Part shown: in pieces, positions 6,494-10,038 of the stretch
How the letters are laid out: every line of letters starts with the position of its first letter
Numbering within the stretch: position 1 is the first letter of the stretch
Notes under the pieces: model-generated
What the model was told of the DNA's origin: nothing
The model's database searches: none
What the model saw: the letters and a program-made list of their open reading frames with translations, nothing else
Made by a program: the position numbers and the translations under genes
From: Mucilaginibacter gossypii
Lineage (GTDB): Bacteria; Bacteroidota; Bacteroidia; Sphingobacteriales; Sphingobacteriaceae
NCBI RefSeq assembly: GCF_900100945.1
Contig: NZ_FNCG01000005.1
Coordinates: 186,001 to 250,000, forward strand
DNA: 64,000 nucleotides
Direction of reading: 5' to 3'

Positions 6494-6523
6494 TTTGACA
6501 ATTCAAATTTCTTTATAAATTTG
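6494..6523 (+). promoter_or_regulatory. Promoter of the tryptophan operon
   Basis: TTTG at 6494-6497 (-33 element) and a perfect TAAATTTG at 6516-6523 (-7 element, TAnnTTTG), separated by 18 nt. This matches the Bacteroidota housekeeping promoter. The expected start of transcription is about 6527-6530, only a few nt before the leader-peptide ATG at 6532. Confidence 0.8.
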
Positions 6524-6531
6524 TGACCGCG

Positions 6532-6600
6532 ATGATTAAAAACACACATAAAAATAGCTGGTGGCACCAATTAAATTGGCAGCCGGCTTGCGCTTTTTGA
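6532..6600 (+). CDS. trpL: trp operon leader peptide
   Basis: A 22-codon reading frame starting ATG at 6532 and ending TGA at 6600. It begins MIKNTHKNSWWHQLNW and so has Trp at positions 10, 11 and 16, an extreme density for a rare amino acid. It lies directly behind a consensus promoter and ahead of an intrinsic terminator and trpE. By analogy with known trp attenuators, ribosome stalling at the Trp codons when charged tRNA-Trp is scarce would alter RNA folding and prevent termination. GCCGG near the end of the frame (6582-6586) is complementary to CCGGC in the left terminator arm (6641-6645), giving a possible antiterminator. The frame is seen directly; regulation is inferred. Confidence 0.85.
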   Translation: MIKNTHKNSWWHQLNWQPACAF

Positions 6601-6637
6601 TCAGAGACAACCTAATCAATTGTGAACCTAAATAGGA

Positions 6638-6669
6638 AACCCGGCGACCCCAATTCGCCGGGTTTTTTT
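6638..6669 (+). terminator. Attenuator terminator of the trp operon
   Basis: A perfect 10-bp stem, AACCCGGCGA (6638-6647) with TCGCCGGGTT (6655-6664), a 7-nt loop and seven consecutive T residues overlapping the stem end (6663-6669). It stands between the leader peptide and trpE, 25 nt before the trpE ATG, so it can only act as a premature (regulated) terminator for the operon. Confidence 0.88.
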
Positions 6670-6694
6670 GTTTTAAGATATTTGAAAAATAAAC

Positions 6695-8104
6695 ATGAGC
6701 ACATTTAAAATTACTACAACTTATAAAAAGCTGCTGGCCGATACCACCACACCAGTGAGCATTTACCTTCGCCTGCGCGATGTATTTCCTAACTCGCTGC
6801 TGCTGGAAAGCTCCGATTATCACAGCCGCGAAAACAGCACCAGCTACATTTGCTGCGAACCGCTCAGCGGCATTGTGCTCAATAACGGTATCCTTAAAAA
6901 ACAATACCCCGATGGTAGCCAGGAAGTACACGAGGCTGGTACGTTTGATTTGATTGAACAGCTTAACAATTTTACCGGTAGCTTTGAAACCGACTCGCTG
7001 CCGCTAAAAATGATCACCAATGGCTTGTTTGGTTACTTTACCCACGAGGCCGTTGAACATTATGAAACCATTAAACTAAAGCAAAGCGATGATGTTACAC
7101 GCCAGATCCCGGTGATGCAGTACCATATTTACAGGTACATCATCGCTATCGACCACTTTAAAAATGAACTTTACATATTTCATAATCAGCCCGAAGGTGC
7201 ACCAACCAATGGCGGTATCGAAAAACTGGAATACCTCATCAAAAACAAAAACTTCCCCGAGTATAGCTTTAAAAGCAATGGGGATGAAAAATCGAACCTT
7301 ACCGGCGATGAGTTCATTGCCATAGTGGAGAAAATGAAGCAACACATTTATCGGGGCGATGTTTTCCAGATAGTGCCTTCAAGGGCTTTCTCCCGTACTT
7401 TCCTGGGCGATGAGTTTAATGTTTATCGCGCCCTGCGTTCTATCAACCCATCACCATATCTCTTCTATTTTGATTTTGGCGATTTCAGGATCTTTGGCTC
7501 ATCGCCCGAGGCGCAGATCACCATAAAAAATAATGTGGCTAACATATTCCCGATAGCCGGAACATTTAAACGCAGCGGTGATGATGAGCGCGATGCCGAG
7601 CTGGCCCGCAACCTGGAAAATGACCCAAAAGAATCGGCAGAACACGTAATGCTGGTTGACCTGGCCCGTAACGACCTGAGCCGTCATTGTGAAAATGTAA
7701 CCGTGAAGGCATTTAAAGAGGTTCAGTATTACTCGCACCTGATCCATTTGGTATCACACGTAAGCGGAAAACTGAAGCCCGGCGTATCGGCCTTTAAAGT
7801 TGTAGCTGATACTTACCCGGCGGGCACGCTGAGCGGCGCTCCAAAATACCGTGCCATGGAGATCATCGATGAAAACGAAAATATAAAACGCAGCTTTTAC
7901 AGCGGTGCTATAGGTTTCCTGGGTTTTAACGGAGATTTTAACCATGCCATCATGATCCGCTCGTTTTTGAGCAAGAACAATACGTTGCATTACCAGGCAG
8001 GCGCCGGCATAGTCGCCGGTTCGATCCCCGAAAGTGAGCTAAGGGAGGTTGATACCAAGATCTCGGCTTTGAGAAGGGCTTTTGAACTGGCGGAGGAGCT
8101 ATAA
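6695..8104 (+). CDS. trpE: Anthranilate synthase component I
   Basis: 469 residues, normal for TrpE. It converts chorismate and ammonia to anthranilate, the first step of tryptophan synthesis. The feedback-inhibition motif LLES is at 36-39, so Trp inhibition is expected. The chorismate-binding domain (about 205-465) shows FGSSPEAQI, PIAGTFKRSG, DLARNDLSRHC and PAGTLSGAPKYRAME. It is the first structural gene after the attenuator. It pairs with the glutamine amidotransferase encoded 71 bp downstream. PabB is the main alternative, but the leader peptide and trpC favour TrpE. Confidence 0.95.
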   Translation: MSTFKITTTYKKLLADTTTPVSIYLRLRDVFPNSLLLESSDYHSRENSTSYICCEPLSGIVLNNGILKKQYPDGSQEVHEAGTFDLIEQLNNFTGSFETDSLPLKMITNGLFGYFTHEAVEHYETIKLKQSDDVTRQIPVMQYHIYRYIIAIDHFKNELYIFHNQPEGAPTNGGIEKLEYLIKNKNFPEYSFKSNGDEKSNLTGDEFIAIVEKMKQHIYRGDVFQIVPSRAFSRTFLGDEFNVYRALRSINPSPYLFYFDFGDFRIFGSSPEAQITIKNNVANIFPIAGTFKRSGDDERDAELARNLENDPKESAEHVMLVDLARNDLSRHCENVTVKAFKEVQYYSHLIHLVSHVSGKLKPGVSAFKVVADTYPAGTLSGAPKYRAMEIIDENENIKRSFYSGAIGFLGFNGDFNHAIMIRSFLSKNNTLHYQAGAGIVAGSIPESELREVDTKISALRRAFELAEEL

Positions 8105-8175: not shown

Positions 8176-8793
8176 ATGAAAGAAAATACAAATACCACGG
8201 AAAGCACCCCCTTTAGGGGGCGGGGGGGGATTCTGATCATAGATAATTACGATTCCTTTACCTATAACCTGGTGCATTTGGTTAATGAGCTCGGCCTGGA
8301 ATGTGAGGTTTGGAGAAATGATCAGTTTGCCATTGAGGATGTGGAAGCTTTTGATAAGATCATCCTATCGCCGGGGCCGGGCATTCCTTCAGAGGCTGGT
8401 TTGCTCCTGGATGTAATAGCAAAGTATGCACCCACCAAAAGCATATTTGGGGTATGCCTTGGTCAGCAGGCTATTGCCGAAGTATTTGGCGGGAGCCTGT
8501 ACAATCTTAACCAGCCTATGCACGGTATCGCGACGCCGATAAAAGTGACCGATGGCGATGAAGAACTATTTGCCGGTTTGCCCGAAAGCTTTAAAGTTGG
8601 GCGTTACCACTCATGGGTAGTAAGCGGCAATGACCTGCCCGATTCATTGCAGGTTACCGCTATTGATGAAGCCGATAATTCTATCATGGCGCTTAAGCAT
8701 AAACAATACGATGTAAGGGGCGTACAATTCCACCCCGAATCGATCCTGACCGATTATGGTAAGGAAATGATGCAAAACTGGCTTAAGGCTTAG
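8176..8793 (+). CDS. trpG: Anthranilate synthase component II (glutamine amidotransferase)
   Basis: 205 residues. A class I amidotransferase supplying ammonia to TrpE: nucleophile Cys94 in GVCLGQQA, and His186 and Glu188 in FHPESIL. The family normally begins directly at the beta strand ILIIDNYDSFTYN, but here that strand starts at residue 19 and has no ATG. Translation must begin upstream; ATG 8176 is the only in-frame ATG close by. The extra 18 residues (MKENTNTTESTPFRGRGG) are encoded partly by a C5/G5 palindrome and a run of eight G. The rest is intact, so the gene is probably functional, but the G8 tract could slip. Dual use for p-aminobenzoate synthesis (PabA) is possible. Confidence 0.92.
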   Translation: MKENTNTTESTPFRGRGGILIIDNYDSFTYNLVHLVNELGLECEVWRNDQFAIEDVEAFDKIILSPGPGIPSEAGLLLDVIAKYAPTKSIFGVCLGQQAIAEVFGGSLYNLNQPMHGIATPIKVTDGDEELFAGLPESFKVGRYHSWVVSGNDLPDSLQVTAIDEADNSIMALKHKQYDVRGVQFHPESILTDYGKEMMQNWLKA

Positions 8794-8834
8794 TTTTATG
8801 AAATAATGATAACTTTGAAAAATTGATATAACGT

Positions 8835-8922
8835 CCCCGCAGGGTCTCTCGTAGAGGACCCTGATATCTGCGGCCATGCATGTGACGAACCGCAGGGTCT
8901 CTCGCAGAGGACCCTCGCGGGG
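8835..8922. repeat. GC-rich element with duplicated hairpin
   Basis: Two 26-nt units (8837-8862 and 8890-8915) differ at one position and each folds on itself (AGGGTCTCT with AGAGGACCCT, one bulged base). They are enclosed by CCCCGC (8835-8840) and GCGGGG (8917-8922), and the sequence between them also has GCGG/CCGC pairing. The whole can form a multi-branched structure. Confidence 0.65.
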
Positions 8923-8936
8923 TGCAGGACACTTAG

Positions 8937-9050
8937 CGGTGCGCGGTGGCCGCGTTAGGGATTGCAGTGAAAAGCCCACAGCGCGGGTTGGGATTGGGGG
9001 CAGGAAAAGCGAGGACTTGCAACGAAAAGCCCGGGCCGCAGGCAACGCAC
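8937..9050. repeat. GC-rich spacer repeat with internal duplication
   Basis: Two related words, GGATTGCAGTGAAAAGCCC and GGACTTGCAACGAAAAGCCC, lie about 60 bp apart in a GC-rich block bounded by GTGCG and CGCAC. Reading frames crossing it look like chance products of the composition. Probably a dispersed repeat; no other copy is in the window. Confidence 0.45.
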
Positions 9051-9100
9051 ATGTTATAAAATTGATTGAAAAATACACTTATTAACCAATAGCTTACAAC

Positions 9101-9235
9101 TATGTCATTATAAGGAAGAGAGCAATTAGCCCCCTCTAAATCTTCTACGGAAAGGAAGATTTAAAAAGCATTTAAAATCCTCTCCTCTGGACGGGGTTGG
9201 GTAAGACTAATTGCTTCGCGCCTCACAATGACATA
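9101..9235. repeat. GTCATT-type palindromic element, copy 2, with nested insertion
   Basis: Outer arms of 29 nt (9101-9129 and 9207-9235) match as an imperfect inverted repeat (22 of 29 positions) and share the GTCATT...AATGAC ends of the element at 5804-5928. The 77-bp interior is a different palindromic unit: CCCC...GGGG ends and an AAATCTTC/GAAGATTT hairpin. This looks like one repeat inserted into another. Confidence 0.65.
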
Positions 9236-9255
9236 AATATTAGTGCTTCGATCCT

Positions 9256-10038
9256 ATGACGATACTTGATAAAATAGTTGCCAACAAAAAAAAAGAGGTT
9301 GCTTCGGCAAAAAAACGTACATCATATACCGTACTTGAAGAATCGGATCATTTTCACCGTGAAACCTATTCATTCAAAGAATTTCTGCTCGATCCCTCAC
9401 GTACCGGTATCATAGCCGAGTTTAAGCGTAAATCGCCTTCAAAAGGTATTATTAACGATAAGGTGCGGGTTAGCGCCGTTACAACAGATTATGCCGCTGC
9501 CGGCGCTTCGGCACTTTCAGTTTTAACTGACCGTAACTTCTTCATGGGCCGCAAAGCCGATCTGGTGAAAGCGCGTTCGGTAAACAGCATCCCTGTATTG
9601 CGCAAGGATTTTATGATAGATGAGTACCAGGTGATAGAAGCCAAGTCATTAGGCGCCGATATTATCCTGCTCATAGCCGCTATACTTACACCTGCCGAAA
9701 TTGATACCCTGGCCAAACTTGCCAAAAGTATAGGCCTTAACGTATTGCTTGAGGTACATAACCTCGAAGAACTGGAACGTAGCATTAACCCTAACCTGGA
9801 TGCCATTGGCGTAAATAACCGCAACCTGGCCGATTTTACCGTGTCGGTTGAAACCTCTTACAAATTGGCTAAACATATCCCCGCCGAGTTTATGAAGATT
9901 TCGGAAAGCGCCATCAGCGATCCCGAAACTATCAGGCACCTTAAATTGGAAGGTTTCAATGGTTTTCTTATTGGCGAAACTTTCATGAAGCAGCAGGATC
10001 CGGGACAGGCTATGCGTGATTTTGTGGCTTTGTTATAA
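9256..10038 (+). CDS. trpC: Indole-3-glycerol-phosphate synthase
   Basis: 260 residues, a single-domain TIM barrel not fused to TrpF. It closes the indole ring from carboxyphenylamino-deoxyribulose phosphate. Motifs: IIAEFKRKSPSKG (catalytic Glu and Lys of strand 1), LRKDFMIDEYQV, LLEVHNLEE, IGVNNRNL and ISESAIS. It is on the same strand as trpE and trpG, 462 bp behind trpG, and is followed by terminators rather than by trpF, trpB or trpA. The missing steps must be encoded elsewhere in the genome. Confidence 0.95.
   Translation: MTILDKIVANKKKEVASAKKRTSYTVLEESDHFHRETYSFKEFLLDPSRTGIIAEFKRKSPSKGIINDKVRVSAVTTDYAAAGASALSVLTDRNFFMGRKADLVKARSVNSIPVLRKDFMIDEYQVIEAKSLGADIILLIAAILTPAEIDTLAKLAKSIGLNVLLEVHNLEELERSINPNLDAIGVNNRNLADFTVSVETSYKLAKHIPAEFMKISESAISDPETIRHLKLEGFNGFLIGETFMKQQDPGQAMRDFVALL

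Follow-up and report, generated by a model that had tools for sequence, protein, structure and literature searches.

A predicted ribosome-mediated attenuator at the trpE leader of Mucilaginibacter gossypii and its counterparts in related bacteria

Organization of the trpE leader region

The 64,000-nucleotide (nt) stretch of DNA from the soil bacterium Mucilaginibacter gossypii analyzed here (the window) carries, on its forward strand, the tryptophan biosynthesis genes trpE, trpG, and trpC, preceded by a short leader region that is the subject of this work. The leader region starts with a promoter comprising TTTG (6494-6497), an 18-nt spacer, and TAAATTTG (6516-6523), from which the transcript would be expected to begin near 6528. 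It is followed by an open reading frame (ORF) of 22 codons, MIKNTHKNSWWHQLNWQPACAF (6532-6600), which is kept in relatives and whose translation places tryptophan (Trp) at positions 10, 11, and 16. Codons 10 and 11 (UGG UGG, 6559-6564) are assigned the regulatory role on the basis of their conservation. Downstream of the ORF lies an intrinsic terminator (6637-6669), made up of the left arm AAACCCGGCGA (6637-6647), the loop CCCCAAT (6648-6654), the right arm TCGCCGGGTTT (6655-6665), and a run of seven Ts (6663-6669). Its perfect stem consists of 11 base pairs (bp), with AAA able to pair with three of the seven Ts, and it ranks first, with the most G-C pairs, among 10 candidates in a terminator scan of the surrounding 5.3 kilobases. 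The leader RNA (6529-6694) folds with z = -4.3, and the real sequence was equaled by 0/200 shuffles. The promoter, the 22-codon frame with its three Trp codons, the terminator with its seven Ts, and trpE had all been described in the initial annotation and are all in place, the one correction being that the stem had been counted as 10 bp.

The gene that would be regulated, trpE (6695-8104), codes for component I of anthranilate synthase; its best NCBIfam match is TIGR00564 (416.6 bits, under the model cut-off of 517.7), and the protein is at most 97% identical to TrpE of named Mucilaginibacter species. It is followed by trpG, the glutamine amidotransferase component (8176-8793; TIGR00566, 190.9 bits, cut-off 121), the true start of which is probably slightly 3' of 8176, and by trpC, indole-3-glycerol phosphate synthase (9256-10038; NF001377, 301.7 bits, cut-off 260).

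Four segments of the leader RNA can be arranged in alternative pairings. Segment 1, around the Trp codons, comprises AGCUGGU (6556-6562) and CCAAU (6567-6571), and is predicted by folding to pair with segment 2 in a protector hairpin. Segment 2, AUUGGcaGCCGG (6575-6586), consists of AUUGG (6575-6579) and GCCGG (6582-6586), and is common to the protector hairpin and to the antiterminator. Its predicted antiterminator partner is segment 3 (6641-6654), with CCGGC (6641-6645) from the left arm of the terminator and CCAAU (6650-6654) from its loop, while segments 3 and 4 form the terminator itself. Trp codons 10 and 11 are located within segment 1 and Trp codon 16 (6577-6579) within segment 2. The antiterminator had previously been proposed as GCCGG paired with CCGGC; these elements are present, although the pairing is longer and adds that of AUUGG with CCAAU. 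Thus, every structural feature of ribosome-mediated trp attenuation that can be read from a sequence is found here, namely tandem codons for the end product, an intrinsic terminator before the first gene, a 2:3 antiterminator, and a 1:2 protector hairpin.

Conservation of the leader within Mucilaginibacter

Close relatives are represented by 80 loci, 74 of them titled Mucilaginibacter and six titled 'Bacteroidetes bacterium'. Adjacent Trp codons (WW) are present in the leaders of 80/80, and the leader is located at most 260 nt from trpE in 79/80; in the remaining locus (L090) it is found further upstream, is of the same type, and has its own promoter and terminator. A WW leader also occurs in 29/29 additional loci of the genus (L003-L031) that were initially left out and checked later, as well as in 23/23 other same-genus loci outside the main set described below.

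Among the 80 Mucilaginibacter regions that were scored because they have a leader and a strong terminator (the window included), WW begins at codon 10 in 76. Any Trp after WW is present in only 25 of these 80 regions, whereas exact GCCGG is present in 75, and in many species the frame shifts over the same letters (NWQPA vs NLAAG). Codon 16 is variable because the reading frame shifts across a conserved RNA segment; with GCCGG kept, what is conserved is therefore the RNA segment, and Trp16 is a by-product in this species. On these counts, Trp codon 16 was rejected as a regulatory codon. Conservation of the leader Trp codons in relatives, on which the initial annotation had made its proposal depend, is thus complete for the WW pair and does not extend to codon 16.

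Conservation across the class

The window genome belongs to the family Sphingobacteriaceae of the class Bacteroidia, the class being used here as the search tool assigns it to this genome. Across this class, genomes with a full-length TrpE match were sampled evenly by group, giving a main set of 187 regions: the 80 close-relative loci, the window, and 106 others from 105 genomes (G266 has two trpE genes). The 106 comprise 47 regions from the same family (18 genera besides Mucilaginibacter) and 59 from the rest of the class (26 families). Loci whose genomes were in the set already were left out, as were L199 and L216, which have almost no upstream DNA. A leader with WW, WWW, or WxW is present in 173/187 regions, including one that is spurious (L257). 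Of the 106 other regions, 95 have a Trp-block leader heading the trp operon, before trpE in 91 and before trpB in four; it precedes trpB in 4/4 trpB-first operons checked (G383, G407, G352, and G323), whose gene order was taken from the sequence 5' of trpE. The remaining 11 include six leader-like ORFs with a single Trp at or close to the expected site of the block (L128-L130, L184, L186, and L207, the last three judged by eye), one truncated contig (L191), and four regions with no leader. Three leaders (L149, L167, and L217) have a GTG start.

The Trp block starts at codons 8-13 of a leader at most 300 nt from trpE in 168/186 regions (one with less than 150 nt upstream was dropped), compared with 1/186 on the reverse strand, 24/3720 dinucleotide shuffles, and 4/426 tiles of the window. 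In 85 of the 86 regions outside Mucilaginibacter that have a strong terminator, the block starts at codons 8-12, and its type in these 86 is WWW in 57, WW in 17, and WxW in 12. All 20 held-out regions that were fetched after the analysis, 14 from the same family and six from other families, have a leader with a Trp block at codons 8-13. Six genomes set aside at first (G260, G521, G525, G531, G538, and G542) were likewise checked at this later stage. A terminator with an in-house score of at least 14 follows 166/172 leaders, as against 7/860 shuffles, and these 166 regions were used for the tests of structure.

Outside the class, no leader was found in 27/30 loci (the 30 best-scoring of 102 genomes matched, 25 of the 102 being in the class of the window). 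The other three all belong to family f67 and have a WWW leader. In these loci (L282, L284, and L286), which come from another class of the same phylum, the leader (MRHVAYHSAHYFGWWWF... and one variant) is followed by a GC-rich hairpin and a T run before trpE.

Co-variation and switching of the alternative pairings

Compensatory changes in the stems, which the initial annotation had suggested looking for in relatives, were found by swap tests, in which the pairing energy of true partners is compared with that of partners exchanged between genera in 20000 permutations. For the antiterminator, the stretch after the Trp codons was paired with the left arm and loop of the terminator. With one representative for each of 46 genera, own partners pair with -13.9 and swapped ones with -9.9 kcal/mol; the double-centered difference of -3.9 (permutation standard deviation 0.42) was reached by 0/20000 permutations. 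With one representative for each of 20 families the difference is -3.1 (standard deviation 0.60), again reached by 0/20000. For the protector hairpin the corresponding numbers are 0/20000 by genus and 8/20000 by family.

The consequences of stalling were modeled by placing a ribosome on the leader, with the right arm of the terminator not yet emerged, and computing the probability that the left arm is sequestered upstream. For the window leader this model gives 0.60 when the ribosome stands on the Trp codons, 0.21 when it has reached the stop codon, and 0.34 without a ribosome. The means of 45 genera are 0.70 at Trp and 0.19 at the stop, compared with 0.46 and 0.36 when the middle of the leader is shuffled, a control that gauges the bias arising because the stalled state leaves more free RNA by construction. 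A shift of more than 0.1 in the predicted direction was obtained for 43/45 genera, and one of more than 0.1 in the opposite direction for 0/45.

Promoter spacing and the start of the transcript

In 79/81 Mucilaginibacter regions the end of TAnnTTTG is located 7-10 nt from the leader ATG. It is 5-9 nt before the ATG in 34/44 other leaders of the family (shuffles have it within 12 nt in 1.5% of cases), and in other families it lies at most 30 nt from the leader start in 32/48, at distances of 4 to 23 nt. In Flavobacterium psychrophilum, TAnnTTTG is placed at -12 to -5 and leaderless messenger RNAs make up only 5.5% of those mapped (PMC9723704). By this rule, the 5' untranslated region (UTR) of the trpE leader is predicted to be about 4 nt long. 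Shine-Dalgarno-like 4-mers are present ahead of 2/166 leaders, with 3.2 expected, and this agrees with the occlusion of the anti-Shine-Dalgarno sequence reported for Bacteroidia (PMC8710568).

Of 36 other ORFs in the window, 10 have TAnnTTTG within 200 nt, three of them at gaps of 4-5 nt, so a short distance between promoter and ORF is not peculiar to the trpE leader. The nearly leaderless start put forward in the initial annotation agrees with the position of TAnnTTTG in the genus. Such a start is not unique and has a precedent in trpL of Sinorhizobium meliloti. The contrast drawn in the initial annotation with a long 5' UTR in Escherichia coli was overstated; the 5' UTR of the E. coli trp leader is about 26 nt.

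Proposed mechanism and alternative explanations

The anatomy of the leader, its conservation, and co-variation in each of the two alternative pairings bear out the attenuation reading of the initial annotation in its essentials. We put the probability that trpEGC is controlled by a ribosome-mediated transcription attenuator at roughly 0.94, and such a device would very probably turn the operon on when tryptophan is scarce. RNA polymerase would initiate near 6528, and a ribosome would start on the leader ORF very close to the front of the transcript, without a Shine-Dalgarno sequence. With ample Trp-tRNA, the ribosome should reach the stop codon at 6600 and mask segment 2 (6575-6586), releasing segment 3 to form the terminator with segment 4, and RNA synthesis would stop near 6669. 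With low Trp-tRNA, it would halt at codons 10-11 and mask segment 1, so that segment 2 could take the left arm and loop of the terminator, no terminator would form, and trpE would be transcribed. If the leader were not translated, the 1:2 pairing would be expected to yield the terminator by default.

A different view is that the terminator is a constitutive intergenic one that sets a fixed level or ends an upstream transcript, with the ORF being an accident of an untranslated stretch. In the full RNA no fold is more stable than the terminator, and short ORFs are common, but an accidental ORF would not explain why some 20 families share a Trp block at codons 8-12 (vs 24/3720 shuffles), why a promoter lies immediately 5' of it, or why the alternative pairings co-vary. 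Since, in addition, the leader travels with the first gene of the operon in the trpB-first cases and a second predicted attenuator precedes trpD, we regard this explanation as highly improbable. Hardly better are the chances that the terminator is run by another sensor of tryptophan. T-box elements, which respond to uncharged tRNA-Trp, and the TRAP protein are known for trp genes of Firmicutes, and a Trp riboswitch could be imagined as well, but with any of them there would be no reason for tandem Trp codons to be kept in an ORF. Nothing in the window scores at the gathering threshold of any Rfam family, the T-box among them: RF00513 (Trp_leader) gives 17.1 bits where 41 are required, and the matches found at relaxed thresholds (STnc180, Qrr, Leu_leader, and others), all of them under gathering scores, look like generic terminator matches and were rejected. 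For TRAP, the leader RNA (6528-6694) has only three GAG/UAG triplets, compared with 11 TRAP-bound repeats (PMC4027176).

It is similarly very unlikely that the leader peptide itself acts, either in trans or as a TnaC-like arrest peptide sensing free tryptophan, in place of simple stalling at the codons. Such activity has a model in peTrpL of S. meliloti, described as working in trans (PMC7298713), and His directly follows WW in 76/80 Mucilaginibacter leaders. Outside the genus, however, the position following the Trp block is variable (Q in 22, H in 18, P in 11, L in 10, and others; n=86), the only invariant columns in a sample alignment of eight leaders are the two Trp, and the C terminus of the peptide changes frame within Mucilaginibacter.

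Several results weigh against ribosome-mediated attenuation. In the equilibrium fold of the complete leader RNA the terminator dominates, with a probability of 0.92-0.93 here, in each of three ribosome states. The antiterminator of the window, taken alone, is moderately above chance, 26/1000 shuffles being as good. Compared with their own shuffles, p<0.05 is reached in just 47% (antiterminator) and 60% (protector hairpin) of 45 genera, and within Mucilaginibacter in 70% for the antiterminator and just 15% for the protector hairpin; in several genera (e.g., L171, L172, L173, L187, L220, and L223) the antiterminator is no better than its own shuffles. A leader was not found in four (L203, L226, L254, and L257) of the 106 regions outside Mucilaginibacter, and three genomes of genus g3 retain only one Trp in the block. 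Since the equilibrium fold favors the terminator, the decision has to fall during transcription, that is, by a kinetic switch. Kinetic switching is usual for attenuators of this kind, and is presumed for the trpE leader.

A second predicted attenuator and histidine leaders

In this genome trpD is not linked to trpEGC and is located on another contig (G000:C39), where it is followed by frames read, by inspection, as trpF and trpB. Some 190 nt upstream of trpD there is a leader, MTKLNNNWWWLNE, followed by a terminator, AAAAGGGTTGCC-ATAC-GGCAACCCTTTT. Together with an antiterminator, these elements occupy positions 1281-1391 of L336 on the minus strand (reverse complement), and make up a second predicted trp attenuator in the same genome. 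The antiterminator (-14.8 kcal/mol, with 3/1000 shuffles as good) begins 12 nt downstream of the final Trp codon; the ribosome-position model gives 0.80 for the stalled state and 0.14 at the stop. The letters of the terminator and antiterminator differ between the trpD and trpE elements; what they have in common is therefore the design and not the sequence.

A His-rich leader ORF, MNGIALHHLHLHHHHVVIS, precedes hisG in the same genome (L288). At least four His in nine residues are found in 29/30 hisG loci of the family (L288 and L307-L335), as against 0/30 reverse strands and 5/1500 shuffles. No obvious strong GC-rich terminator was seen after seven hisG leaders that were examined, and a stretch like ATGTATGTTTCTACGYGAA follows in several.

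On balance, we consider it probable, with considerable room for doubt, that leader-peptide attenuation is standard, and probably ancestral, for the trp operons of Bacteroidia (and for his operons, at least in Sphingobacteriaceae), that it works without Shine-Dalgarno sequences and, in Sphingobacteriaceae, on nearly leaderless trp transcripts, and that a single tryptophan signal controls two unlinked trp operons together here, by way of the two attenuators. Classical attenuation requires that the first ribosome keeps up with RNA polymerase. If the proposal is true, ribosome and polymerase would advance in close step here, in a phylum with few studies of their coupling. Conservation of the leader across many families of the class supports such timing on comparative grounds, in bacteria where Shine-Dalgarno sequences are rarely used. 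The trpE leader would serve as a ready reporter, with tryptophan-dependent readthrough at the predicted terminator as its output.

Relationship to known attenuators

One close parallel is trpL of E. coli and other enterobacteria, which likewise has a leader ORF with tandem Trp codons, a protector hairpin, an antiterminator, a terminator with a U run, and trpE as the first gene. The tandem Trp codons of E. coli trpL are codons 10 and 11, as in the leader described here. Unlike its enterobacterial counterpart, the latter is predicted to be nearly leaderless, with no Shine-Dalgarno sequence, has a Bacteroidota promoter, and serves a genome in which the trp genes are distributed over at least two operons predicted to be attenuated. 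Consecutive Trp codons and attenuation are also described for trpLE(G) of S. meliloti, where the trpL transcript begins at the leader ATG (PMC7298713). S. meliloti belongs to another phylum and its trpL is strictly leaderless, compared with the approximately 4 nt expected here; its peptide and small RNA have roles in trans that the leader described here is not known to share. Leaders with double or triple UGG and terminator/antiterminator pairs are described as well for the actinobacteria Corynebacterium and Streptomyces (PMC1262725), also from another phylum and likened here by description.

The proposed mechanism is of an already known kind, and what is added is a class-wide survey of trp leaders, the co-variation of both pairings, the distinction between conservation of codons and of RNA, and paired attenuators in one genome. 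The device is widespread in a class remote from the enterobacteria, where it was first discovered, and its leaders represent regulatory RNAs missed by Rfam models here, as well as tiny genes whose omission from standard annotation is to be expected. Attenuation is said to have been surveyed broadly by Lopatovskaya et al. 2010 (Mol Biol 44:128), where cases from Bacteroidota may be listed. In the portions of the literature searched, no recognizable description of a trp leader attenuator in Bacteroidota was found, the nearest being a paper on F. psychrophilum (PMC9723704). Structured elements at hisG and pheA are presented there, and attenuation of amino-acid operons by leader peptides was suggested for the flavobacterium in 2021; 'trp' is absent from the main text, and the section on amino-acid leaders contains no co-variation test or phylum-wide survey. 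In a regulon survey of 2013 it is suggested that amino-acid attenuators may stem from gamma-proteobacteria (PMC3766115), a narrow view of their origin against which the trp leaders of Bacteroidia argue.

Additional observations

The single Trp of the g3 leaders (L128, L129, and L130) is at codon 10 and is followed by Gln or Arg at 11 (MIDQKHNNNWRSLPKRKAG and two similar sequences), possibly representing a weakened or re-tuned attenuator. In another genus (g8), the trpE match at G106:C1:1530090-1531232 contains one TGA and one TAG and ends at residue 379, so that this gene appears to be broken. A genome-wide pattern search for further nearly leaderless TGGTGG leaders was uninformative (57+48 matches vs 53+51 in the reversed control), and no clear Ile/Val/Leu attenuator was seen in the region upstream of ilvD.

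Downstream of trpD, the frames resembling trpF and trpB are continuous, with no stop between them (...KNKIQQ-MKYGVNEQGYYG...; L336 reverse complement from 2476), and may represent a trpF-trpB fusion; the locus ends inside trpB. In the window, the 462 nt between trpG and trpC (8794-9255) contain no likely gene and carry two copies of CCGCAGGGTCTCTCG...GAGGACCCT (at 8837 and 8890). Among the 80 close-relative loci, the gap between these two genes ranges from 0 to 594 nt.
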